A DNA stretch of 37,543 nt, taken from contig NZ_JRJG01000045.1 in NCBI RefSeq assembly GCF_000759435.1, forward strand, positions 1-37,543, written 5' to 3'. The DNA is from Hoeflea sp. BAL378 (GTDB lineage: Bacteria; Pseudomonadota; Alphaproteobacteria; Rhizobiales; Rhizobiaceae). The translations under genes and the position numbers were made by a program. Numbering within the stretch: position 1 is the first letter of the stretch; every line of letters starts with the position of its first letter. Under the pieces are notes generated by a model. The model searched no databases. It was not told the origin of the DNA and saw only the letters and a program-made list of their open reading frames with translations. Positions 177 through 32,928 of this stretch are shown here, one piece after another.

Positions 177-1532
177 GTGACAAGCATGGACAAGAGGACG
201 ATTGCGGGGCGCAGACGCGTGCTTGCGGGGATGGCCGGATCCCTGATTCTGGCGACGATGCCGTGGGCCTCGGCCTGGGCGGAAGACGGCCTGGGAACCG
301 CCGACGCTCCCGTTGAAGTCCGGATCATGGCCAACGAAGCCTTCGCCAACTCGTGGCAGACCCTGCTCGTGCCGGAGTTCAACAAGGTGTATCCCAACAT
401 CCACGTCACCTTCGACGGCGTGCCCTACACCGAGTTGCTGGCCAAGATGATGCTCGACGCCACCAGCCCGCAGCCCGAATACGACGTGCTCCTGGTCGAT
501 GATCCGTGGGTGCCGCAGCTCGCCGAAATCGGCGCTCTTGCGGACCTCAAGGGAGAGAAGATCGCCGCCCTGACGAGCGCGGACTACGACTGGGACGACT
601 TCAACGCCGCGCCGCTGGCGGCCGGCGAATGGAACGGCGTCCAGTATGCGGTTCCGGTCCGCTCCAACATGCTGCTGCGGTTCTACAACCGTTCGCTCTA
701 CAAGGCCGCGGGCCTGCCCGAGCCGACGCCGGCGCAGACCTGGGACGAGTTCTTCAGCGACGCCGAGAAGCTGGTGCGCGACACCAATGGCGACGGCAAG
801 GCCGACGTCTGGGCGGTTGACACCTATTTCGTCCGCGAGCCGCTGACGCCGACGATCTGGCAGTCGATCCTCAACGCCAATGGCGGCAGCCTGCTCGATG
901 ACGCCGGCGCGCCCGCCTTTGCCAACGAAATCGGCGCCAAGTCGCTCGAAACCCACAAGCGCCTGCTGGACTACGCGCCGCCCGGCGCCCTCGGCCACGG
1001 CTTCTCCGATTCCCTGCAGGCTTTCCGCCAGGGTCTCGTGGCCAACCTGTTCAACTGGGGCAGCGTCTACAAGTCGACGGCGGTCGATCCCAAGTCGACG
1101 ACCCTGACCGTCGACGAAGTCGGCATCCAGGTCCTGCCGGTGGGCGACGCCCGGGCAGGCTCGCACCGCGGCATCTGGATCGCCGGCATCGGCAGCAAGA
1201 CCGAGCACGTCGAGGCGTCCTGGGCCTTCCTGCAGTGGCTCACCTCCAAGCAGGGCGAGAGCGTCAACGCCACGCTGGCCGGCTCGTTCCCGGCGCGCAA
1301 GTCGACACTCACCGGCACGCCGGCAGAACCCTGGCTGGGACCGGTCTACCAGACCCTGCAGAATGCCTATGAGGTGGCGGCCGAAGGCGGCATGTGGCGC
1401 ATCCGCAGCGCCAAATCCGACGCGGCCCAGCAGATCCTCGCCGACGAGATCGCCCGCGGCCTGGCCGGACAGGCGAGCGCCGAGGAAGCCCTTTCCACGG
1501 CGTCTGAAAAGATCGCCAAGGTCCTCAAATAG
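177..1532 (+). CDS. ABC transporter sugar-binding protein (family 1 solute-binding)
   Basis: This is the periplasmic receptor of a CUT1-type sugar importer. It would capture the substrate and deliver it to the permeases at 5076 and 6002, powered by the ATPase at 7640. The protein has 451 residues, typical for the family. The N-terminus has an arginine-rich stretch (GRRRVLAG), a hydrophobic core and an AWA-type cleavage site near residue 35. Export could be Sec or Tat, since RRR-V-L resembles a weak Tat motif. The GTG start is preferred because AAGGAGG (162-168) sits 8 nt upstream. The ATG at 186 would be about 17 nt from that site. It is the first gene after a strong promoter, and two hairpins follow it. 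The substrate cannot be read from the sequence; the neighbouring enzymes suggest a sugar, sugar acid or polyol. Confidence 0.88.
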   Translation: MTSMDKRTIAGRRRVLAGMAGSLILATMPWASAWAEDGLGTADAPVEVRIMANEAFANSWQTLLVPEFNKVYPNIHVTFDGVPYTELLAKMMLDATSPQPEYDVLLVDDPWVPQLAEIGALADLKGEKIAALTSADYDWDDFNAAPLAAGEWNGVQYAVPVRSNMLLRFYNRSLYKAAGLPEPTPAQTWDEFFSDAEKLVRDTNGDGKADVWAVDTYFVREPLTPTIWQSILNANGGSLLDDAGAPAFANEIGAKSLETHKRLLDYAPPGALGHGFSDSLQAFRQGLVANLFNWGSVYKSTAVDPKSTTLTVDEVGIQVLPVGDARAGSHRGIWIAGIGSKTEHVEASWAFLQWLTSKQGESVNATLAGSFPARKSTLTGTPAEPWLGPVYQTLQNAYEVAAEGGMWRIRSAKSDAAQQILADEIARGLAGQASAEEALSTASEKIAKVLK

Positions 1533-10185: not shown

Positions 10186-10222
10186 CCCGGGAGGGCTTCG
10201 CCTCGCTCTAAGCCGCCGCCGA

Positions 10223-11305
10223 TTAGCGGGTGAAGCCCAGCGGCACCGAGAAGGGCCAGCTCGAGCGGCCGGCATCGGCCGGGATCGGCGGGAAGGGGGC
10301 CGCGCGGCGCACCGCGTCGGCGGCCGCGCCGTCGAGCACCGGCGAGCCCGAGCTCCGGGCGATGCGAATGCTGCTGACGCCGCCATTGCCGGTGACGACG
10401 AAGGAGACCACCACGTCGCCTCTGATCCCCTGCCGCCTGGCTTCGCGCGGATAGCGCAGCGACCGCCGGAGCTTGGACGCGATCTTGCCCGGATAGTTGG
10501 AGACCGCGGCGTTGCCGGCCGCGGCGCTGCGCTTGGCCGCCGCCGTTCCGCTCGAGGATCGGCTCGCCGTGGCGGCCTGCTTGCCGCCGTCGCCGGTCTT
10601 GGCCGGCTTGGACGCGGCGCGCCGGGTCTCGCGGTCGGCCTTGGCCTTCCTCGGCTCGGTCTTCGCCGCCTTCTTCGGGGCGGGAGCGGGGGGCTTGGGC
10701 TTGGCCGTCGCGGCCTGCGGCGGCTCGGGACGCGGCACCGGCAGCGGTATGGTGTCGGGAAGCGCCACGTCCGGGGCCGGTTCCGCGGCGGGCTCGATCT
10801 CGCGCGGCGGCGGCAGCGCCGCCAGTTCCTGGGACTGGGCCGGCAAAGCCTCGATCACCGGCGTGGCGTTAAGCGTTTCGGGCTGCGCAGTGCTCGTGGC
10901 ATCGGGCCCGGCGAGCGCGAGCGCCGGCGCCGGCTCGACGGCAAGCGCTTGCTCCGGCGGAACCGGTCCGGTCTCGTGAGCGATGACCGTCTCCGACGGC
11001 AAATGGTCAGGCGCGACGGGCGCAACCGCGGTGTCGGCAACCTGCGCGTCCGTGTCCGTGGTTTCGACCGCCTCGGCCGCGACGGGCTGCGTCTCGGCGA
11101 CGGCGTCGACGGGGTCCAGCACATCGCCCGGCTCTCCGGCCATCAGGCTGTCGTCGAAGGCGGTGCCGATTATGAGCTCGCTTGTCGCGGCGCCGCCGGC
11201 GATCTCGCCCTCGGGCTCAGGCTCGATGAAGATCGCAGCCGCGGCCACGTGCACGGCGAGCGAGAAGGTCATGGCGGTCAGGAGCTGGGCGCGGCGGAGT
11301 TTCAT
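10223..11305 (-). CDS. tonB: TonB energy-transducing protein
   Basis: This is the periplasm-spanning protein that carries proton-motive energy from ExbB/ExbD to the outer-membrane receptor. It has 360 residues. There is a short cytoplasmic N-terminus and a membrane anchor (about 9-27). A long region rich in proline, alanine, glutamate and lysine follows (PVPRPEPP, KPKPPAPAPKK). The C-terminal TonB fold (about 270-360) carries the YPREARRQGIRGDVVVSF signature. The long linker suits spanning the periplasm. It is the last gene of the minus-strand heme receptor operon, and its ATG overlaps the stop of exbD2 by four bases (ATGA). The assignment is secure; use by receptors elsewhere in the genome is possible. 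Confidence 0.9.
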   Translation of the reverse strand: MKLRRAQLLTAMTFSLAVHVAAAAIFIEPEPEGEIAGGAATSELIIGTAFDDSLMAGEPGDVLDPVDAVAETQPVAAEAVETTDTDAQVADTAVAPVAPDHLPSETVIAHETGPVPPEQALAVEPAPALALAGPDATSTAQPETLNATPVIEALPAQSQELAALPPPREIEPAAEPAPDVALPDTIPLPVPRPEPPQAATAKPKPPAPAPKKAAKTEPRKAKADRETRRAASKPAKTGDGGKQAATASRSSSGTAAAKRSAAAGNAAVSNYPGKIASKLRRSLRYPREARRQGIRGDVVVSFVVTGNGGVSSIRIARSSGSPVLDGAAADAVRRAAPFPPIPADAGRSSWPFSVPLGFTR

Positions 11306-11709
11306 TCCCGCCCCCGCTCGACGAGGAGAACGATCCCGTCGACGCCGGCCCTGCGCAGCTCGTCGAGCCTGTCGAGCAGGTCGACGGCCGGAAGCAGCCG
11401 GTCGGCGGCGATCCGGAGCGGGCGCGGTTCGGGAGCCCCGGCCTGCAGGCCCTGCCAGCGCAGGACGTGATCGGTGAGCGGCAGCGCTTCGCCGCGCCAG
11501 GTCAGGGTCCCGTCGGCGCGGATGAACAGCATGTCCGGCGGCGCGGCGGGATCGGTCGCCGCCAGGGTGATGAAATCGACGTCGCCGTCGGGCGCCGGCG
11601 CCAGCGTGCCGGCAACCAGGAAGAAGATCAGCATCAGGAAGACGACATTGATCAGCGCCACCGTGTTCTCGGGCTTGCGCGATGTCCGTGCCGGCGCGAT
11701 CCGCATCAT
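11302..11709 (-). CDS. ExbD/TolR-family protein, second copy, with Asn for the key Asp
   Basis: This is a biopolymer-transport ExbD relative of 135 residues, with one N-terminal membrane helix (LINVVFLMLIFFLVAGTL) and a periplasmic domain. In ExbD and TolR an aspartate in this helix (in LIDV) is needed for proton-driven function. Here the aligned residue is N21, encoded by AAT, in ALINVVF. The neighbouring ExbD (11706-12092) keeps the aspartate. The two may form a mixed ExbD dimer in which only one subunit has the proton-responsive residue. Both junctions are ATGA overlaps, so it is translated in step with exbD1 and tonB. The sequence is otherwise intact, with no sign of decay. Confidence 0.82.
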   Translation of the reverse strand: MMRIAPARTSRKPENTVALINVVFLMLIFFLVAGTLAPAPDGDVDFITLAATDPAAPPDMLFIRADGTLTWRGEALPLTDHVLRWQGLQAGAPEPRPLRIAADRLLPAVDLLDRLDELRRAGVDGIVLLVERGRE

Positions 11710-19790: not shown

Positions 19791-19818
19791 GGGCGACTTG
19801 ATCCCGATCAAGTCGCCC
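19791..19818. promoter_or_regulatory. FNR/FixK-type box inside a perfect 28-bp palindrome
   Basis: GGGCGACTTGATC (19791-19803) and GATCAAGTCGCCC (19806-19818) form a perfect 13-bp inverted repeat around CC. The centre reads TTGATCCCGATCAA (19798-19811), an exact TTGAT-N4-ATCAA anaerobic box for FNR, FnrN or FixK. It lies 67 nt after hmuV and about 170 nt before the P-type ATPase start. The missing T-run makes a plain terminator less likely. No clear -10 was found at the expected distance (about 19834-19839). The rest of 19725-19989 shows nothing else I can name. Confidence 0.62.
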
Positions 19819-19989
19819 GACGGCCATTGGGCGCACCTTGTGGCCATCGGTGGGGACCGTGCCGTTTGCGCTCGTTTCTCATCGACAGGAAGCCAACCCT
19901 ATCGGGCACGGGCGCGACGACAGGCCGGACCCCTGTGGCGCGCGCCGGGGCGGAGGGGAGTATCGGGGAGTGCCCTTCGCGTGAATGCA

Positions 19990-21867
19990 ATGTCCCATGA
20001 CCGAATTAAGACCACCTTGCTGGCCATCGCCGCGCTCGGGCTGGCCGCGGGTCTCGCCCTCCTTGCGGCCGGGCTCCCGGTCCAGGCCGATCTGGTCTGG
20101 ACGGCGGGCGTTGTCCCGGTCCTCGCCGCCCTGCTGATCGAGATCGTGCGCAGCCTTTCCAGGGGCGAGGTCGGGCTCGACATCGTCGCGGCCCTGTCGA
20201 TGACCTCGGCGCTCGTCTTCGGCGAAACCCTGGCTGCTGCGGTGGTCGCGGTGATGTATTCGGGCGGCACGTTTCTCGAGAGCTTCGCCGAGGGCCGCGC
20301 CCGGCGCGAGATGAGCGATCTTCTCTCCCGCGTGCCCCGGACCGCGACGCGGCGCCGCAATGGCGCGCTCGACGAAGTCCCGCTCGACGACATCGCGCTG
20401 GGCGACCTTCTCCTGATCCGGCAGGGCGATGTGGCGCCGGTCGACGGCACGGTCGAAAGCGACCGGGCGATCCTCGACCAGTCGGCGCTGACGGGCGAAT
20501 CGATGCCCGTGCGCCTGCTGCGCGGCCAGGAGGTGATGAGCGGCTCCACCAATGCGGGCGACGCCTTCGACCTGCGGGTCGCCCGGCGCGCCGCCGACAG
20601 CACCTATGCCGGCATCGTCCGGCTGGTGGAGGCCGCGCAGGCGTCCCGGGCGCCGATGGCGCGGCTCGCCGACCGCTGGTCGCTTTTGTTCCTGCTCGTC
20701 ACCGTCGCCCTGGCGGCGGCGGCCTGGTGGCTCACCGGCGACCCGATCCGCGCGGTCGCGGTGCTGGTCGTGGCCACGCCCTGTCCGCTGATCCTGGCGG
20801 TGCCGGTGGCGCTGGTGGCGGGCCTGTCGCGGGCGGCGCATTTCGGCGTGCTGATCAAGGGCGCCAAACCGCTCGAGGCGCTGGCGCGCATCACCACGCT
20901 GATCCTCGACAAGACCGGCACGCTGACCGACGGCCGGCCGCAAATCGTGTCGATCGGCGTCCACGGGACCTGGTCCGAAGACGAGATCCTGTATTTCGCC
21001 GCGGCCCTCGACCAGGCGTCCAAGCACCCCATCGCCCAGGCGATCGTCGCAGCGGCGAGGGAGCGCGGCATGGTCCTGCCGGTCCCGGAAAACATGGTCG
21101 AGACAGCCGGCGAGGGCGTCGCCGGCACCATCGATGGACGAAACCTCCTGGTCGGCGGCGCAAAATTCGTGGCCTCGCAGCTCGGCACGACCGACATTGA
21201 CGGCGCGGTGGCCGAGACCGGGTCGGTGGTCGTGTCGCTCGGCGTCGACGGCGTGCTCGCGGGTCATCTTGTCATGGCGGATGCGCTGCGGTCGGGCACG
21301 GCCGAGTTCCTGGCGGGCCTGCGGCGGCTGGGGGTGGGACGCATCCTGCTCGCCACCGGCGACCGCCGCGCGGTGGCCGATTCCATCACCGCCGGGCTGG
21401 GCCTCGATGCGGTGCGCAGCGAGCTGACGCCCGACCAGAAGGTGCTGCTGGTCCTCACCGAGCGCAAGAACGGTCCCGTGATGATGGTGGGCGACGGCGT
21501 CAACGACGCGCCGGCGCTTGCCGCAGCCGATGTCGGCGTGGCCATGGGCGCGCGCGGCGCGGCGGCGTCGGCGGAGGCGGCGGAGGTGGTGCTGCTGGTC
21601 GATCACCTCGACCGCCTGCTGCCCGGCATCGAGGTGGCCCAGCGCGCCCGCCGGATCGCGCTCGAAAGCGTCGCCGTCGGCATCGGCCTGTCGATCCTCG
21701 GCATGATCGCCGCCGCACTCGGCTATCTCACCCCGGTCGAGGGCGCGCTGCTGCAGGAACTGATCGACGTCGGCGTGATCCTGAACGCGCTGCGGGCGCT
21801 CAGGATCAATCCCAGGCTCGGCGCGGCCTCGGCCGAGCCGGAGGCGGCCGGCCACCGCCCCGCGTGA
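19990..21867 (+). CDS. Heavy-metal P1B-type ATPase, P1B-5-like (TPCP / QELID)
   Basis: This is an inner-membrane metal pump of 625 residues from ATG 19990; GTG at 19981 is also possible. The core motifs are intact: TGES (DQSALTGESMP), phosphorylation site D307 (DKTGTLT), SKHPIAQ nucleotide-binding HP, and GDGVNDAPAL. The metal-selecting motif in membrane helix 4 is T263-P-C-P266 rather than CPC or SPC. The last helix has QELID, matching the QExxD pattern. These features define the P1B-5 group, whose studied member (Nia of Sinorhizobium) is linked to Fe and Ni export. There is no N-terminal CxxC metal domain, and the C-terminal hemerythrin domain often seen in P1B-5 proteins is absent: the protein ends about 25 residues after the last helix. 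Position behind heme uptake favours iron export. Confidence 0.85.
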   Translation: MSHDRIKTTLLAIAALGLAAGLALLAAGLPVQADLVWTAGVVPVLAALLIEIVRSLSRGEVGLDIVAALSMTSALVFGETLAAAVVAVMYSGGTFLESFAEGRARREMSDLLSRVPRTATRRRNGALDEVPLDDIALGDLLLIRQGDVAPVDGTVESDRAILDQSALTGESMPVRLLRGQEVMSGSTNAGDAFDLRVARRAADSTYAGIVRLVEAAQASRAPMARLADRWSLLFLLVTVALAAAAWWLTGDPIRAVAVLVVATPCPLILAVPVALVAGLSRAAHFGVLIKGAKPLEALARITTLILDKTGTLTDGRPQIVSIGVHGTWSEDEILYFAAALDQASKHPIAQAIVAAARERGMVLPVPENMVETAGEGVAGTIDGRNLLVGGAKFVASQLGTTDIDGAVAETGSVVVSLGVDGVLAGHLVMADALRSGTAEFLAGLRRLGVGRILLATGDRRAVADSITAGLGLDAVRSELTPDQKVLLVLTERKNGPVMMVGDGVNDAPALAAADVGVAMGARGAAASAEAAEVVLLVDHLDRLLPGIEVAQRARRIALESVAVGIGLSILGMIAAALGYLTPVEGALLQELIDVGVILNALRALRINPRLGAASAEPEAAGHRPA

Positions 21868-21898: not shown

Positions 21899-22507
21899 CT
21901 ATCTGGATCCGGGATAGGGGTCTCGCGCAAGCAGTCTCGCCAGATGCAACGCATTGGCGACCATCATGTCGATGGTGCTCTGGACCTTCTTCGGCGTTTC
22001 GGGCAGATCGATGAAATCCGTCGATTTCATCGCTTCGCCCACCCAGTAGGCGATGGCGTTGGGCGCAAGCGAGAACCCGACATCGTTGAGCGCCTGGTAC
22101 AGTTCGGCCGAGACATGGTGCGCGCCGTCCTCGTTGCCGACGGCGGCGACCGCGGCGACGCGACCATAGGTCGGCATCCGGCCCCGATCGTCGGTTTCGC
22201 CCAGGAACGCGTCCATCCGCTCCAGCGCGCGCTTGCACACGCTCGACGGCTGCCCCAGCCAGATCGGGGTGCCCAGGATCAATATGTCGGCTGCGAGTAT
22301 CTTCTCGCGGATCATCGGCCATTCGTCGCCGTCTCCCTCGCCCGAGGTCACGCCCGGCCAGATGTCGTAATCGGCAAGCGTCAGGATCTCGCAGTCGACA
22401 TCTTCCTTTTTCATCGCCGCGGCGATGAGGTCGAGCATGTGGCCGGTCGACGATTTGCTCCGGTCGGGGCCGGACTTGAGCGTGGCGTTCAGTGCAATGG
22501 CTTTCAT
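21899..22507 (-). CDS. Flavodoxin-like / NADPH-dependent FMN oxidoreductase
   Basis: This is a cytoplasmic flavodoxin-fold protein of 202 residues. The FMN phosphate loop follows the first strand (ALNATLKSGPDRSKSSTG). The segment ILGTPIWLGQPSSVCKRALERMD is the typical flavodoxin-family flavin contact (TPIW/TPxY) of NADPH-dependent FMN reductases of the WrbA/ArsH-like superfamily. It likely reduces quinones or other acceptors two electrons at a time, a protective role. The ATG at 22507 is preferred over 22513 because GGAGG lies 6 nt before the former and abuts the latter. It is divergent from the glycine-zipper lipoprotein gene and sits beside stress-type genes. Confidence 0.82.
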   Translation of the reverse strand: MKAIALNATLKSGPDRSKSSTGHMLDLIAAAMKKEDVDCEILTLADYDIWPGVTSGEGDGDEWPMIREKILAADILILGTPIWLGQPSSVCKRALERMDAFLGETDDRGRMPTYGRVAAVAAVGNEDGAHHVSAELYQALNDVGFSLAPNAIAYWVGEAMKSTDFIDLPETPKKVQSTIDMMVANALHLARLLARDPYPGSR

Positions 22508-22694
22508 CTGCATCCTCCGGATCTGCGTCCTGCTGCTGTTTTCTGGCGGGGGCTTTGCGAGGAGCCGTAGGAGCGTGGTGGTCGTATCTGGCGCGCCCTG
22601 TCCCGGTTCCCGCTTTGAGGCCGCCCCGGGTTCACAACCATGCCCGTCCGGGTTTGTTCCCGGCCGGGGAGGCGGCGGCGGAGGAAAGTTTTTT

Positions 22695-22719
22695 GGAACT
22701 TCGGCGGCGCTGCGCGGTT
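22695..22719 (+). promoter_or_regulatory. EcfG-type general stress promoter of the lipoprotein gene
   Basis: GGAAC (22695-22699) and GTT (22717-22719) are separated by 17 bp, matching the promoter of the alphaproteobacterial general stress sigma factor EcfG/RpoE2 (GGAAC-N16/17-cGTT). A start near 22726 would leave a leader of about 25 nt to the ATG at 22751. Confidence 0.65.
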
Positions 22720-22750
22720 ACCCGCGTATCGACACAGAGGAGAGATGACG

Positions 22751-22999
22751 ATGAAACATGTTTTGCTGGCAACCCTGCTGCTCGCACTCGGCGCCTGCAC
22801 CGCGACTGAACGAGGAGCGGCCATCGGCGGCGTTTCCGGCGCTGCGATCGGCGGCGCCGTCAGCGGCGACATCCGGGGAGCCGCCGTGGGCGGCGCCGTG
22901 GGCACCGTGGCCGGCGCCCTGATCGGCCGGGCCAGCGAGCCGGGCCAGTGCTACTACCGCGACGGCAACGGTCGTCGCTACACCGCTGCCTGCCCCTGA
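22751..22999 (+). CDS. Glycine-zipper outer-membrane lipoprotein (17-kDa antigen-like)
   Basis: This is a small envelope lipoprotein of 82 residues. A short signal peptide ends in the lipobox LGAC with the lipidated cysteine at residue 16. Residues 22-60 are alternating glycines and small residues (AAIGGVSGAAIGGAVSG and a second block GAAVGGAVGTVAGALIG), a glycine zipper likely inserted in or lying on a membrane. The tail is CYYRDGNGRRYTAAC, with two cysteines. The ATG at 22751 has AGGAGA 7 nt upstream; the ATG at 22745 is too close. An EcfG-type promoter precedes it and a strong terminator follows, so it is a single stress-induced gene. The exact function is unknown. Confidence 0.82.
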   Translation: MKHVLLATLLLALGACTATERGAAIGGVSGAAIGGAVSGDIRGAAVGGAVGTVAGALIGRASEPGQCYYRDGNGRRYTAACP

Positions 23000-23016
23000 T
23001 ACGGCCCGAACCCGTG

Positions 23017-23056
23017 ACGCAGACCCGGCGCCTTCGGCGGGTCTGCGTTCGGTTTT
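23017..23056 (+). terminator. Rho-independent-like terminator of the lipoprotein gene
   Basis: ACGCAGACCC (23017-23026) pairs perfectly with GGGTCTGCGT (23039-23048). The loop can add a GCC/GGC pairing around TTC. TCGGTTTT follows. It begins 18 nt after the stop codon. Confidence 0.72.
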
Positions 23057-23239
23057 CAGGCGCAGCGGAAGCCGCCAGGCAGGAGACCCTGCCTGCCATG
23101 AAAGCGCGGATGACAAGAGATACAATTCAGACGGAAAGGCGCATGTGTGGGGGATGCGGACTTCTGGAGCCTTTGCGATTTAAAAGCAGGCGAGCGGCCA
23201 GTTGCGAAGCCCGGCGGATGACCCATTGAACGAAATCTG

Positions 23240-23261
23240 ACGAGGGCCCTGAAGCCCTCGT
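23240..23261 (-). terminator. Hairpin terminator of the 80-residue gene
   Basis: ACGAGGGC (23240-23247) and GCCCTCGT (23254-23261) form a perfect 8-bp stem with a 6-nt loop, 29 nt beyond the stop of the minus-strand gene at 23291. On that strand it is followed by CAGATTTCGTT, a weak T-rich tail. The stretch 23057-23239 shows no gene I can support. Confidence 0.52.
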
Positions 23262-23290
23262 ACTCGCAGACGAACGGTTCCGCGTTGGCG

Positions 23291-23533
23291 TCAGTAGACG
23301 TAGGCTTGCGGTGCGGCCGGGGTTTTCTGGTTGGTGGCGAGATCGCGGAGCGCACCGTCGGCACCCAGCCGGCGCAGCACCAGCCTGGTCCCGTCGGTGA
23401 TCTTGCCATGGGTTCCGGATTTGACGGCGGTCACCGCCAGATGCAGGCTCGGATAGGAGGCCATCAGGCGTCCGTCCAGAAGCACATCCCAGCCATCAGA
23501 CTGGGGCATGAAGTCATACACACGCTGTGCCAT
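23291..23533 (-). CDS. Small hypothetical protein, stress-promoter controlled
   Basis: This is an 80-residue protein with no signal peptide. I do not recognise a named family with certainty. The layout (MAQRVYDFMPQSDGWDVLLDGRLMASYPSLHLAVTAV, then a loop and RLVLRRLGADGALRD) resembles the small DUF2188-like fold: a short beta sheet plus one helix. GGAGGAG lies 7 nt before the ATG at 23533. A perfect EcfG-type promoter lies about 40 nt upstream and a hairpin follows the gene. The open frame extends upstream to 23611, but this would run through the promoter. Its position between two other stress-type genes suggests a stress role, mechanism unknown. Confidence 0.7.
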   Translation of the reverse strand: MAQRVYDFMPQSDGWDVLLDGRLMASYPSLHLAVTAVKSGTHGKITDGTRLVLRRLGADGALRDLATNQKTPAAPQAYVY

Positions 23534-23572
23534 CGGGTCTCTCCTCCGCTGCTCGCAATTGGCAACCGGGAT

Positions 23573-23597
23573 AACGATCGATGCGGCCGTTGGTTCC
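23573..23597 (-). promoter_or_regulatory. EcfG-type general stress promoter of the 80-residue gene
   Basis: On the minus strand GGAAC (23597-23593) is followed after 17 bp by GTT (23575-23573), with a C before it, giving the full GGAAC-N16-CGTT form. The start would be near 23566, with a leader of about 33 nt. Confidence 0.68.
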
Positions 23598-23754
23598 ACC
23601 TGCGGAGGCAATTTTGCGCGTGGTTATGCTACTGGCCTTCCACCTTGTGCCGCAGGGGAAGGGGGCCCAAAAAAATCGCGCGGCGCCGGATCTTTCCGGG
23701 TCCCGAAGCATTGATATGGCAAGCACAGATGCGGCGAGCACAAGGGAGTTCATC

Positions 23755-24099
23755 ATGATCCACCGTGACAAGAGCATTCGCGAAAGAGCCTATGAAATCT
23801 GGGAGTCCGAAGGCCGTCCCGAAGGCCGCGAGGCCCAGCACTGGGAACAGGCGCGCGCCGAGCTGGCGAGCCTGACCGGCGCCGGCGAGGCCAACCAGGC
23901 GCCCGAGGCAGTCTCCAAGGCCGGCGCAAAGCCGCGGGGCAGCACCAAATCCGCGGCTGCCGCCAAGCCGGGTGCCAAGGCTGGCTCCAAGTCTGAGGGC
24001 AAGGGCGGCGTCTCGGCGGTTGACCGGGGTGTGGCGGTGCTCCGCGAAGATCCCAAGGCCGAAAAGCCCAAGCCGAAACGCAAGCCCGGCAAGACCTGA
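23755..24099 (+). CDS. DUF2934 protein with histone H1-like lysine/alanine-rich tail
   Basis: This is a protein of 114 residues in two parts. Residues 5-37 form the DUF2934 helical motif (IRERAYEIWESEGRPEG, HWEQARAEL). Residues 45-114 are low-complexity, rich in lysine, alanine, proline and glycine (SAAAAKPGAKAGSKSEGKGG, PKAEKPKPKRKPGKT). This makes the tail strongly basic and similar to histone H1-like tails, so nucleic-acid binding is conceivable. AAGGGAG lies 6 nt before the ATG at 23755. I found no GGAAC box directly upstream, unlike its neighbours. DUF2934 has no established function. Confidence 0.8.
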   Translation: MIHRDKSIRERAYEIWESEGRPEGREAQHWEQARAELASLTGAGEANQAPEAVSKAGAKPRGSTKSAAAAKPGAKAGSKSEGKGGVSAVDRGVAVLREDPKAEKPKPKRKPGKT

Positions 24100-24280
24100 G
24101 CGCCGCTCGGCGGATCGTCTCCGGCGCTTCCAGCCTGCATGACGCCAGGTGAAACAGGCGTCGCACGAATGCCTTCTGCCGCGGCAAATGCCTGCGGCAG
24201 CCCGCGAGGATGGGCGCGAATTGCCCGCCTGAAGGGCGAAGATCCGGCGCGCGCTTCGCCGCCGGTCCTGAAAAAAATAC

Positions 24281-24305
24281 GGAACCATTGGCCCGCCACT
24301 CTGTT
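24281..24305 (+). promoter_or_regulatory. EcfG-type general stress promoter of the glgE-treS operon
   Basis: GGAAC (24281-24285) and GTT (24303-24305) are 17 bp apart. The predicted start near 24312 lies 27 nt before the TTG start of glgE and excludes longer upstream starts. It would place alpha-glucan and trehalose metabolism under the general stress response. The stretch 24100-24280 has only weak inverted repeats (GCGCCG 24100/CGGCGC 24122; GACGCC 24141/GGCGTC 24157), perhaps ending the preceding transcript. Confidence 0.68.
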
Positions 24306-24338
24306 GACCTGTCACACGACCGACCGGGGAGACTTCTT

Positions 24339-27433
<3,095 letters not shown>

Positions 27434-27437
<4 letters not shown>

Positions 27438-30400
27438 ACCAGACTACTCGATCCATCACCGCCCCCGCCATCGTCACCGATATGAACGATCCCTTGTGGT
27501 ACAAGGACGCCATCATCTACCAGGTGCACGTCAAGTCGTTCTTCGATTCCAACAATGACGGCATCGGCGATTTCGCCGGCCTGATGCAAAAGCTCGATTA
27601 CGTGGCCGAGCTTGGCGTCACCGCCATCTGGCTGTTGCCGTTCTATCCCTCGCCCCGCCGCGACGACGGCTACGACATCGCCGAATACTGCGCCGTCAGC
27701 CCCGACTACGGCACGATCGAGGAGGCGCGCGCCTTCATCGAGGCGGCGCATGCCCGCAACATCCGTGTCATCACCGAGCTGGTCATCAACCACACCAGCG
27801 ACCAGCATCCCTGGTTCCAGGCCGCCCGCAAGGCGCCGGCCGGTTCGCCCGAGCGCGATTTTTATGTCTGGTCGGACGACGACAAGCTCTATTCCGGCAC
27901 GCGCATCATCTTTCTCGACACCGAGAAGTCCAACTGGACCTGGGACGAGGAGGCGGGCGCCTATTTCTGGCACCGCTTCTATTCGCATCAGCCGGACCTG
28001 AATTTCGACAATCCCGCGGTGCTCGAGCGCGTGCTCGAAGTCATGCATTTCTGGCTGGATGCAGGCATCGACGGCCTGCGGCTGGACGCCGTGCCCTATC
28101 TCATCGAGCGCGACGGCACCTCCAACGAGAACCTGCCCGAGACCCACGATGTTCTCAAGCGCATCCGCGCCGACATGGACGCGCATTATCCCGGCCGCAT
28201 GCTGCTCGCCGAGGCCAACATGTGGCCCGAGGACACGCAGCAGTATTTCGGCGGCGCCGCCTGCGGTGAGGACAACGTCGCGCCGGTGACGGACGAATGC
28301 CAGATGGCGTTCCACTTCCCGCTGATGCCGCGCATGTACATGGCCGTGGCCCAGGAGGACCGCTTCCCGATCACCGACATCATGCGCCAGACACCCTCCA
28401 TTCCCGAGGACGCGCAATGGGCGATCTTCCTGCGCAACCACGACGAGCTAACGCTGGAAATGGTCACCGACGCCGAGCGCGACTATCTGTGGAACACCTA
28501 TGCGTCGGACAAGCGCGCCCGCATCAATCTCGGCATCCGTCGCAGGCTGGCGCCGCTGATGGAGCGCGACCGCGCCCGCATCGAGCTGATGAACGCGCTG
28601 CTCCTGACCATGCCGGGCACGCCGGTGCTCTATTACGGCGACGAGATCGGCATGGGCGACAACATCTTCCTGGGCGACCGCGACGGCGTGCGCACGCCGA
28701 TGCAGTGGTCGCCCGACCGCAACGGCGGCTTCTCCCGCGCCGACCCGGCCTCGCTCACGTTGCCCGCGATCCAGGATCCGCTCTATGGCTACGAGGCGGT
28801 CAATGTCGAGGCGCAGGAGCGCGACCGCCATTCACTTCTGAACTGGGTCAAGCGCATGCTCGCCGTGCGCCGCGGCCACCAGGCCTTCGGCCGCGGCACG
28901 CAGACCTTCCTGCGCCCGCCCAACCGGCGGATCCTCGCCTATCTGAGGGAATATCAGGGCGAATCGATCCTCTGCGTCGCCAATCTCGGCCGCACCGCCC
29001 AGGCGGTCGAGCTGGACCTGCACGAGTTCGAGGGCCGCACGCCGGTGGAACTCACCGGAGGCGCCGCCTTCCCGAAGATCGGCCAGTTGCCCTATCTGCT
29101 GACGCTGCAGCCCTACGGGTTCCTGTGGTTCCAGCTCGCCGAGGGCGTCGAGCCGCCCAAATGGGCCACCTCCGCTCCGGGAGAGGAGATCGAGCACCAC
29201 ACCTTCGTGCTGCGCTCCGGTCTCGACGGCATCGCCGATTTCGCCAACCGCGCCGCGCTGGAGCGGGACGTGCTGCCGGGCTACATCGCCCATCGCCGCT
29301 GGTTCGGCGGCAAGGACGAGCCGATCACCGGCGTCAGGCTTGAACGGCTCACGCCGATGCCCGCGGCCCAGGACCTGGTGCTGGGCGAATTCCGCGTCAC
29401 CACCCCGGTGGCCGAGGCGACCTACACCCTGCCGCTCGGCATCGCCTGGGCCGACGGGCAGAACGGGCCCTATGCCTCCAACCTGGCGATCTCCCGCGTC
29501 CGCCGCGGCCGCGATGTGGGCCTGCTCACAGACGGCTTCGCGCTTGCGCCGTTTGCCCGCTCGGTGCTGACCGCCATGCGTGACAACACCGTGGTTGCCA
29601 GTGGCGAAGGCGAGATTCGCTTTTCCGCCATGCCCGGCTTCGATCTCGATCCCGAGGGCGATGTTGAATGGATGGCGGCTGAGCAGTCGAACTCCACCAT
29701 GGTGCTCGGCCGCAAGGCGGTGCTCAAGCTCCTGCGCAAGGTCGCGCCCGGCGCCCATCCCGATGTGGAGATGGTCCGCTATCTCTCCGACAACGGCTAC
29801 CGGAACGTGCCGCCGATGCTCGCAACCGTCACTCGCCACGAGAACGGCGAGGACACCCTGCTGATGCTGGCCCAGGCCTTCGTCTACAACCAGGGCGACG
29901 GCTGGCAGTGGAGCCTCGATTTCCTGAACCGGCTCGCCACCGAGACCGAGCCCAGCTTCTCCAATTACGAGAACTTCGCCGCCAATCTCGGCCGGCGGCT
30001 GGCGGCGATGCACGAGACCCTTTCGAGCCCCACCTCCGAGCCGGACTTCGTGCCCGAGCCGGTGACGCTCGAACAGGCCGACAAGCTCGGCGGCCGCATC
30101 AAGGGCCAGGTCGACAAGGCCATGGGCCAGTTGCGCGGCGCGTCGCTCGACGAGGCCCGGGCCCGGGACGCTGACTTCCTGTTCGACAAGCGCGACGCGC
30201 TGATCGAGCGCATCGGCGCCGTCGTGCGCGGCGCGGTCGACCGTTCCCGCACCCGCATCCACGGCGATCTGCATCTCGGACAGGTGCTGGTCACCGGCGA
30301 CGACGTGATGTTCATCGACTTCGAGGGCGAGCCCACCCGTCCGATCGCCGAGCGCCGCGGCAAGGACCTGGCGCTCCGCGATGTCGCGGGCATGATGCGC

Positions 30401-30736
30401 TCCTTCGACTACGCCGTAGCCGTCGCCGAGCGCAACCGCCCGGCAGGCGCCGAGCCCTGGAGCGAGGAATGGTCCGATTCCTTCCGCAAGAGCGCCAAGC
30501 AGGCGTTCCTGGCAGGCTATCACGGCATCGAACCGGAAACGATCTCCGGCGAACCCGCCGACGGTGAAAAGCTGCGACCGGCAGTCGAAGTCGATCCTCT
30601 GCTCGACGTGCTGATCATCGAGAAGGCGGCCTATGAGGTCATCTATGAGGCGGCCAACCGTCCCGACTGGATCGGCGTGCCCGTGGCCGGGCTGGCCCGC
30701 GCCGTGCACCGCCTGCTTGCAGGGGAAGTGCAATGA
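27434..30736 (+). CDS. treS: Trehalose synthase-maltokinase fusion (TreS-Mak)
   Basis: This is a bifunctional cytoplasmic enzyme of 1100 residues. Residues about 25-570 are a GH13 trehalose synthase that interconverts trehalose and maltose: [19 protein letters not shown] at the start, nucleophile D218 (LRLDAVPYL), acid/base E260 (LAEANMW) and D337 (RNHDEL). Residues about 620-1100 are a maltokinase of the aminoglycoside-phosphotransferase fold: [11 protein letters not shown], the ATP-binding [14 protein letters not shown], catalytic D945 (IHGDLHLGQ) and metal-binding D962 (FIDFEGEP). The fusion channels trehalose through maltose to maltose-1-phosphate, the GlgE substrate. GGAGGAA precedes the ATG. 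It overlaps glgE and glgB by ATGA. Confidence 0.93.
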
Positions 30737-32928
30737 CCGGCAATGACGATATCCTGGGCGCGGCAGCCGCCGCGCTCCTGGAAGGACGCCTCGACGATCC
30801 CTTCGCGCTGCTCGGCCCGCACACCGTGCGCGACGGCCGCGTCGTGCGCACGTTCCAGCCGGGCGCAGAGCGCGTCTCGCTGGCGGCGCGCGACGGCGGC
30901 GCCGACCTCGGGGAGCTCGACCAGGCAGCGCCCGGTTTCTTCACCGGCCCCGTTTCCGACGACCGTCCCTATCTCTTGCGCATCACCTGGCCCGGCGGCG
31001 CGGTGCAGGAGATCGAGGACCCCTACAGCTTCGGCTTCGTGCTGGGCGATCTAGACCTGCATCTGTTTTCCGAAGGCCGCCATCTCGACCTCGCCAAGGT
31101 CTTCGGCGCCCAGCCCACCACCATGGAGGGCGTTCCGGGCGTGGCCTTTTCGGTCTGGGCGCCCAATGCCCGCCGCGTCTCGGTGGTCGGCGACTTCAAC
31201 ACCTGGGACGGCCGCCGCCATCCGATGCGGCTGCGCCACCAGGCCGGCGTGTGGGAGCTGTTCCTGCCGCGGCTGGGGCCGGGCGCACGCTACAAGTTCG
31301 AGATCGTCGGCCGCGACGGCAGCCTGCTGCAGAAGGCCGATCCGATGGCCCGCCAGACCGAGGCGCCGCCGGCGACCGCCTCCGTGGTGGCCGGTCGCCC
31401 TGATTTCAAATGGCACGATGCCGACTGGATGGAGGAGCGCGCCCGCCGCCATGCCGACGACGCGCCGATCTCGGTCTACGAGGTCCATGCCGGATCCTGG
31501 ATGAAACCGGACGGCGAAGGCGACCGCGCACTCGACTGGCGCGGACTGACCGAACGGCTGATCCCCTATGTGGCCGAGATGGGCTTTACCCATGTCGAGC
31601 TGCTGCCGATCATGGAACATCCCTTCGGCGGCTCCTGGGGCTACCAGCCGCTGTCGCAATTCGCCCCCTCGGCCCGCTTCGGCAGGCCCGAGGATTTCGC
31701 CCGCTTCGTCGATTCCTGCCACCGCGAGGGCGTCGGCGTCATTCTCGACTGGGTGCCGGCGCATTTTCCCACCGATGCCCATGGCATGGCGCATTTCGAC
31801 GGCAGCCATCTCTATGAGCACGCCGATCCGCGCGAGGGCTTCCACCAGGACTGGAACACGCTGATCTACAATCTCGGCCGCCGCGAGGTCTCGGGCTTCC
31901 TGCTCGCCTCGGCGATCTGGTGGCTCGAGGTGTTCCATGTCGACGGCCTCCGCGTCGACGCCGTCGCCTCGATGCTCTACCGCGACTACAGCCGCAAGCA
32001 TGGCGAATGGGTGCCCAACATCCATGGCGGCCGCGAGAATCTGGAATCCGTGGCCTTCCTCAAGCGGATGAACACGATCGTGGCGGAACGCTGCCCCGGC
32101 GCCATCACCATCGCCGAGGAATCCACCGCCTGGCCGGGCGTTTCGGCGCCGGTGGCCCAGGGCGGGCTTGGCTTCGACTACAAGTGGAACATGGGCTGGA
32201 TGCACGACACGCTCCACTACATCGAGCGCGATCCGCTGTATCGCCGCTGGCACCAGGGCGAGCTTACCTTCCCGATGGTCTATGCCTATTCGGAGAAATA
32301 CATCCTGCCCATCAGCCATGACGAGGTGGTGCACGGCAAGGGTTCGCTGGTCACCAAGATGCCGGGCGACCGCTGGCGCAAATTCGCCAATCTGCGGCTC
32401 TATCTGTCGCTGATGTGGACCCATCCGGGCCGCAAGCTGCTGTTCATGGGCTGCGAACTCGGCATGGAGACCGAGTGGAACCACGACCAGGCGCTGCCCT
32501 GGCATCTGCTCGACCATCCCGAGCACGCCGCCATCCAGAGGCTGGTGCGCGATCTCAACCGGCTCTACGTCACAGAGCCGGCGCTGCACCAGCGCGACAG
32601 CAATCCCTCCGGCTTCCAGTGGCTGGTGGCGGATGATTCCGAAAACAGCGTCTTCGCCTTCGTCCGCCATGGCGACGGCGGGTCCGTGGCGGTGGCGCTC
32701 AACATGACGCCGCAGCCGCACGATGGCTACCGGATCGGCCTGCCGGCAGCGGGCCACTGGACCGAAGTGCTCAATTCCGACGCCAAACGCTTTGGTGGCT
32801 CCAACACCGGCAACGGCGGCGGCGTCCATGCCAGCGACCACCCCATGCACGGCCAGCCCTGCTCGGCCGCCATCACCCTTCCACCCCTCGGCGCCATTCT
32901 TCTGCGCCATCAAGGATCACGCACTTGA
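30733..32928 (+). CDS. glgB: 1,4-alpha-glucan branching enzyme GlgB
   Basis: This is a GH13 branching enzyme of 731 residues, a normal length. It creates alpha-1,6 branches in the glucan made by GlgE. An N1 domain ([22 protein letters not shown]) and a carbohydrate-binding CBM48-type domain ([20 protein letters not shown], about 140-160) precede the barrel. The catalytic residues are nucleophile D409 ([11 protein letters not shown]) and acid/base E462 ([11 protein letters not shown]). The block [15 protein letters not shown] is typical of GlgB. It starts inside the treS stop (ATGA), and its stop overlaps the TTG of glgX (TTGA). Confidence 0.94.

Follow-up and report, generated by a model that had tools for sequence, protein, structure and literature searches.

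Candidate promoters of the general stress sigma factor EcfG around a glgE-treS-glgB operon in Hoeflea sp. BAL378

The locus and its EcfG-type sites

The DNA considered here is a stretch of 37,543 nt (the window, whose positions are used unless a locus is named) from contig NZ_JRJG01000045.1 of Hoeflea sp. BAL378 (assembly GCF_000759435.1; genome size 5.48 Mb). It contains an operon that consists of glgE, the gene for maltose-1-phosphate maltosyltransferase, a treS-maltokinase fusion and the branching enzyme gene glgB, preceded by genes for an FMN reductase, a glycine-zipper protein, an 80-residue protein of unassigned family, here called U80, and a DUF2934 protein (Table 1). The GlgE N/S and C-terminal domains, TreS-maltokinase and GlgB, which together characterize the GlgE pathway, are all encoded. 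The glycine-zipper protein, referred to below as the lipoprotein, has an LGAC sequence that, judging by eye, we take to be lipobox-like.

Ahead of these genes lie sites that match GGAAC-N17-GTT, the motif of the general stress sigma factor EcfG: four exact matches and one variant are packed into 1.7 kb. Three of them, before the lipoprotein, U80 and glgE genes, had been reported in an initial annotation of the sequence, which placed them 25-40 nt upstream of the genes; a pattern search recovered all three with the same coordinates and strands, and GTT is separated from the start codon by 31, 39 and 33 nt, respectively. The other two had been overlooked. One serves the FMN reductase gene and stands back to back with the lipoprotein site, the two being 34 nt apart; the other, before the DUF2934 gene, departs from the exact pattern in both elements (GGATC and ATT instead of GGAAC and GTT) and is, accordingly, termed EcfG-like only. 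A sigma-70 promoter scan of positions 22300-24500 returned a single weak match, 23098-23126 (+), that is not directly ahead of any of the listed genes. A hairpin 3' of the lipoprotein gene (-33.6 kcal/mol, z -2.3) was not reported by the terminator scan.

Table 1. Genes and EcfG-type sites of the locus, in window coordinates
Feature	Position	Strand	Support and remarks
NADPH-dependent FMN reductase/flavodoxin-fold protein, 204 aa	21899..22513	-	PF03358, E 4e-20
GGAAC-N17-GTT, FMN reductase gene	22636..22660	-	exact; 122 nt before gene start; not in the initial annotation
GGAAC-N17-GTT, lipoprotein gene	22695..22719	+	exact; start codon ATG 22751
Glycine-zipper protein (lipoprotein), 82 aa	22751..22999	+	PF13488, E 2.2e-7; PF13441, E 2.7e-7; above Pfam cut-off
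U80, 80 aa, family unassigned	23291..23533	-	open frame; Hoeflea-only in these searches
GGAAC-N17-GTT, U80 gene	23573..23597	-	exact; start codon ATG 23533 (-)
GGATC-N17-ATT, DUF2934 gene	23688..23712	+	EcfG-like variant, both elements inexact; 42 nt ahead of ATG; not in the initial annotation
DUF2934 protein, 114 aa	23755..24099	+	PF11154, E 2.7e-14; Lys/Ala-rich tail (by eye)
GGAAC-N17-GTT, glgE	24281..24305	+	exact; start codon TTG 24339
glgE, maltose-1-phosphate maltosyltransferase, 1032 aa	24339..27437	+	PF11896, E 4e-49; PF21702, E 2e-15; TTG start
treS-maltokinase fusion	27434..30736	+	TIGR02456, E 5e-281; TIGR02457, E 1e-143; ATGA overlap with glgE
glgB, branching enzyme	30733..32928	+	TIGR01515 and NF003811, above cut-off; ATGA overlap with treS

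When a pattern with only eight fixed bases is searched for in a GC-rich genome, the possibility of chance matches has to be considered. The backwards pattern, used as the background control for the forward GGAAC-N17-GTT, still occurs 132 times in the 5.48 Mb of the genome, and a fifth exact match in the window, 1266-1290 (-), falls within an open frame of 497 codons in the same orientation and is probably due to chance. However, for the 1670 bp of the cluster this background predicts 0.04 matches, as compared to the four exact ones found, each ahead of a gene (Poisson P ~1e-7 for four or more), and none of 100 dinucleotide shuffles of the window reached its five matches (mean 0.56). The earlier statement that three such sites would be very unlikely to coincide by chance is borne out by these figures.

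Conservation of the sites in Hoeflea

The locus was compared with 18 genomes of the genus, 297 genomes drawn from the order and 199 genomes of Rhizobiaceae; presence counts in these three sets refer to first-pass candidates, which alone were scored. In Hoeflea olei, which together with H. marina is the closest named relative in the comparison set, the sites of the lipoprotein, U80 and glgE genes are all found at matching places (3/3), and in H. marina both sites at the locus, those of U80 and glgE, are retained (2/2), in all cases with the N17 spacing, whereas the spacers between the elements have diverged. The TTG start of glgE is also shared with both species. Four of the 18 Hoeflea genomes have full-length glgE, and these are also the four with U80 and DUF2934; most of the others have only short, weak GlgE matches. 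Among the four, the window included, the U80 site with its N17 spacing is present in all and the glgE site in three. In the fourth genome (G313), the DUF2934 gene ends ~150 nt before glgE, and the U80 site is present.

The lipoprotein has a different distribution. Its relatives were found at 28 places across all 18 Hoeflea genomes; the site lies at -54 to -56 in each of the four copies with at least 70% identity (window included), and only one match (L170, at -245) was seen among the other 24 copies, one of which (L168), a contig-end fragment, was effectively outside the scan. The site is kept in G310 although full-length glgE is absent there, and in H. marina although the lipoprotein copy lies on a different contig from the glgE cassette. 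In G310, the neighbouring FMN reductase gene has its own N17 site at -148, back to back with the lipoprotein site (L180), as in the window. Close copies of the FMN reductase gene are present in G310 and G306, both without full-length glgE. Upstream of this gene in the window lies an open frame (19798-21867) that, by eye, resembles a P-type metal ATPase; a comparable frame is found directly ahead of the lipoprotein gene in H. olei.

Thus, scanning relatives for the pattern, as the initial annotation had advised, shows that the sites recur before orthologous lipoprotein, U80 and glgE genes. Such footprints, with the sites kept at matching places amid diverged spacers, by themselves disfavour chance, which we consider a very improbable source of the cluster.

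Regulator genes and the probable identity of the sigma factor

The genome encodes the regulators that EcfG control would involve: NepR was found once (E 2e-12), the gene for the EcfG-type sigma factor lies beside nepR, and phyR is divergent from them. Genome-wide, the motif has 199 matches with N17, as compared to 554 for the six other spacings between N14 and N20 taken together (mean 92; Poisson P 5e-22), whereas the backwards control yields 132 matches at N17 and, on average, 110 at the other spacings.

GGAAC-like -35 elements are common among extracytoplasmic function (ECF) sigma factors, and ten matches to Sigma70_r2 were found in the genome, so that the sites could be real promoters used by an ECF factor other than EcfG. 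The motif, however, is the one published for EcfG: the consensus is reported as GGAAC-N16-CGTT in Rhizobium etli (PMC3892343) and as GGAAC-N17-20-GTT in Sphingomonas melonis (PMC6599016). Besides, there is a single EcfG/NepR pair, and EcfG is distant (at most 38% identity over any aligned stretch) from the seven, out of nine other sigma loci, with which it was compared. Finally, sites of this kind stand at the regulator locus: the phyR/nepR gap contains GGAAC-N17-ATT in both directions, back to back (L039, 1733-1709 (-) and 1742-1766 (+)), and GGAAC-N17-GTT, overlapping the end of phyR, lies 32 nt upstream of the start of the DUF1328 gene that follows phyR (L039, 2624-2648 (+)). Since the former sites have the ATT form and the latter the GTT form, both elements look usable in the Hoeflea genome. 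A different ECF factor thus appears unlikely, and the assignment to EcfG made in the initial annotation, which the regulator genes, the N17 enrichment and the matching sites in relatives support, is very probably right.

EcfG-type sites before other glgE genes

To see the glgE site in a wider context, the best 80 of 177 GlgE loci were retrieved, 78 of which (all except L046 and L094) had sufficient upstream DNA. Forward matches with N16-19 within 930 nt were significantly more frequent among the 37 alphaproteobacterial loci, where 13 had one (backwards, 2), than among the 41 others, where 2 did (backwards, 0; Fisher p 0.001). The split was made by hand, with L054 and L058 placed among the non-alphaproteobacterial loci; in random stretches of the alphaproteobacterial loci the frequency of matches was 5.6%. 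None of the ten loci retrieved from the Rhizobium-type GlgE clade lacks the site: in nine it lies no more than 930 nt from the match, and in the tenth, L076, it stands 77 nt before an in-frame ATG. Within Rhizobiaceae, where 40 genomes had a GlgE match, 30 glgE loci, a set that may overlap with the 80 loci above, gave 17 forward and 4 backwards matches; 16 of the 17 forward matches were judged to be at a promoter-like distance.

The GlgE of Hoeflea does not belong to this clade. In the GlgE tree, the Hoeflea cores join the sphingomonad ones (15 rows, support 100) and stand outside the Rhizobium-type clade, so that a switch of one kind precedes two glgE versions that are far apart. The simplest reading of the tree would be a transfer between the Hoeflea and sphingomonad lineages, and the U80-DUF2934-glgE-treS-glgB cassette would, on the best reading, be related to sphingomonad operons. 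Matches to sphingomonad, Rhizobium and Burkholderiaceae loci extend into the N-terminal stretch of ~380 residues of the Hoeflea GlgE (24339-25490), which has no Pfam match; those in the Stutzerimonas loci begin only at residue 386. In two sphingomonad metagenome-assembled genomes, an exact GGAAC-N17-GTT precedes a divergent glgX-like gene that adjoins DUF2934-glgE (L041, 5115-5091 (-); L044, 5170-5146 (-)); in L044, the glgX-like gene was recognized solely through its near-identical N-terminus.

DUF2934 and U80

The DUF2934 gene probably has an EcfG-type site of its own, of a variant form. The GGATC-N17-ATT sequence is common to the window, H. olei and H. marina; in G313, one DUF2934 gene has GGAAC-N17-ATT and a second one the exact GGAAC-N17-GTT. 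Accordingly, all five DUF2934 genes found in Hoeflea fit GGA(A/T)C-N17-(G/A)TT, a motif that was relaxed after looking at them. GGATC likewise figures in the motifs given for genes of S. melonis that are under EcfG control (PMC6599016). Among 29 DUF2934 loci of Rhizobiaceae, one of which (L196, a misplaced contig-end fragment) was effectively outside the scan, seven have an exact match with N16-18 no further than 350 nt away (backwards control, 2) and eight have the relaxed N17 form (control, 0), most of the genes showing no such site.

The link between DUF2934 and GlgE is the less expected part of these results and the main unexpected lead. In the 199 Rhizobiaceae genomes, where at most 36 candidates were scored per genome and the DUF2934 counts are lower bounds, DUF2934 is present in at least 86 and GlgE in 40; DUF2934 was found in 35 of the 40 GlgE genomes and in 51 of the 159 others (Fisher 1.4e-10, with kinship ignored and the overlap read from lists). 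In at least nine of the 40 GlgE genomes, the window included, DUF2934 is no more than 20 kb away from glgE. Seven of the eight other regions of this kind (L247-L254) have the order glgE-treS-glgB-glgX, with DUF2934 following glgX at a distance of ~2 to 6.5 kb; the eighth, that of G337, has DUF2934 and glgE in divergent orientation. The DUF2934 copies listed for the other GlgE genomes are located away from glgE.

With respect to function, the DUF2934 protein of the window has a weak match to PF23229 (DUF7067 of glucan water dikinase; E 0.004), below the cut-off. Membership in this family was considered but not adopted, as six of the 10 sequences scanned matched only weakly (E 0.004-0.07), none of them reaching the 27-bit cut-off. 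The best matches in a PDB search had E-values of only 0.039 and 0.55. In the literature listed, four papers name DUF2934, a single time each. A tentative and rather doubtful suggestion would be that DUF2934 is a stress-induced accessory of alpha-glucan metabolism that binds either glucan or one of the GlgE/GlgX cluster enzymes via a short W-containing motif (maybe distantly related to DUF7067), and that, in Hoeflea, it works together with U80 under EcfG.

U80 was found in four of the 18 Hoeflea genomes and in one of the 297 genomes drawn from the order, and had no match in Pfam, NCBIfam, PDB sequences or plasmids. An AlphaFold2 model built from three sequences (predicted local distance difference test score, 75) has the order three strands, helix, two strands, and its comparison with the PDB by Foldseek gave no match at E <=0.001. 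U80 looks DUF2188-like, a resemblance that no tool supports. The gene that follows U80 in G313 (L145, ~10208-11585) resembles, by eye, a type IB DNA topoisomerase and has GGAAC-N16-ATT upstream; topoisomerase IB is listed among the EcfG-controlled genes of S. melonis (PMC6599016).

Several short units, probably under one regulator

The sites are best explained as promoters of EcfG that would co-activate several short transcription units, a reading to which we assign a probability of roughly 0.85. Directly observed are the sites and how they are conserved, as well as the genes of the regulators and the families of the enzymes. From these observations we infer promoter activity and EcfG dependence, as well as the direction of the flux in the cell. 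Upon stress, phosphorylated PhyR would bind NepR, thereby freeing EcfG, and the RNA polymerase carrying EcfG would start transcription shortly after each GTT or ATT element. Besides U80 and DUF2934, the units induced together would be the divergent FMN reductase/lipoprotein pair and the glgE-treS-glgB operon with its overlapping genes. Because GlgE, TreS-maltokinase and GlgB make up a known route from trehalose via maltose-1-phosphate to branched glucan (PMC11046441), stress may in this way couple trehalose turnover to glucan storage. In Bradyrhizobium diazoefficiens, treS (blr6767) is under EcfG control, and the role proposed for TreS there is the degradation of trehalose, not its synthesis (PMC8092242); given these findings and the known GlgE route, the Hoeflea operon could, under EcfG, drain or buffer stress-made trehalose into glucan.

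Several observations weigh against the assignment of the sites to EcfG promoters. In the genome as a whole, the forward pattern pooled over N14-N20 shows no excess (753 matches, fewer than the 794 backwards ones), and thus, N17 being high, the forward signal is specific to N17; even here only about half of the matches exceed background, so that a lone site proves little. Within Hoeflea, glgE of G313 has no site within 300 nt upstream, and the FMN reductase gene of G306, which is 78% identical, is without a site. Beyond the genus, 13 of the 30 Rhizobiaceae glgE loci have no exact match, and among 11 loci of sphingomonads and Erythrobacteraceae, 10 of them scannable, the exact site precedes glgE only in L042 and L043. 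Moreover, the compared loci come from related lineages and their counts are not independent.

Do the co-regulated genes share a function? The initial annotation envisaged a single stress unit, which did not hold: the genes behind the sites are separate and run in divergent and convergent directions, and G310 keeps the lipoprotein and FMN reductase sites without full-length glgE. DUF2934, then placed between these genes as a possible member of that unit, is part of the glgE cassette and probably has its own variant site. It could be that EcfG regulates all these genes but that the lipoprotein/FMN reductase pair and the glgE cassette have no common function, having become neighbours only through the accident of a shared sigma factor. 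The occurrence of lipoprotein relatives in every Hoeflea genome, the sites kept in G310 and on another contig in H. marina, and the close FMN reductase copies in G310 and G306 all point this way; the restriction of U80, DUF2934 and full-length glgE to exactly the same four genomes points the other way. We give accidental neighbourhood even odds as an account of the whole cluster; it is compatible with EcfG control and is probably right for the lipoprotein/FMN reductase half. The preferred view of the cluster is that of several EcfG units from two sources, namely the lipoprotein/FMN reductase pair and the co-inherited U80-DUF2934-glgE-treS-glgB cassette. The family names would suggest an envelope role for the lipoprotein and a redox role for the FMN reductase, both of which are guesses.

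Comparison with known systems

This type of promoter switch is already known, and EcfG control of trehalose and α-glucan genes has been published for other Alphaproteobacteria, so that the locus is a new instance. The regulation of the GlgE pathway has been very sparsely studied, according to a 2024 review (PMC11046441), and none of the papers listed in the literature searches contained both EcfG and glgE. The present data make it likely that EcfG also controls the trehalose-to-glucan (GlgE) pathway of Hoeflea and, judging by the recurring sites, that of many Rhizobiaceae. Since two distant versions of glgE within one family carry the same kind of switch, they suggest repeated recruitment of glgE into the stress response, and they provide a testable context for DUF2934 and U80.

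The Hoeflea sites share with the EcfG (sigma-EcfG/RpoE2/SigT) regulon the GGAAC -35 element, the GTT -10 element, the 17-nt spacing, the short distance to the start codon and the phyR/nepR-ecfG locus, and trehalose and glycogen genes are among its reported targets (PMC6599016, PMC8092242). What differs in Hoeflea is the packing of the sites into 1.7 kb around a glgE-type operon, the GGATC/ATT variant of DUF2934 and the presence of U80. As compared to GlgE pathway operons (glgE, treS-mak, glgB), the domains, the gene order and the ATGA overlaps are alike, whereas the Hoeflea GlgE has the long N-terminal stretch before its N/S domain and a core of the sphingomonad type rather than of the Rhizobium type of its own family. 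A further parallel is the EcfG-dependent trehalose/GlgX cluster of S. melonis, which similarly links EcfG with alpha-glucan genes but is of the TreY/TreZ/GlgX type, its glgX upstream region having been assayed as a putative indirect target (PMC6599016).

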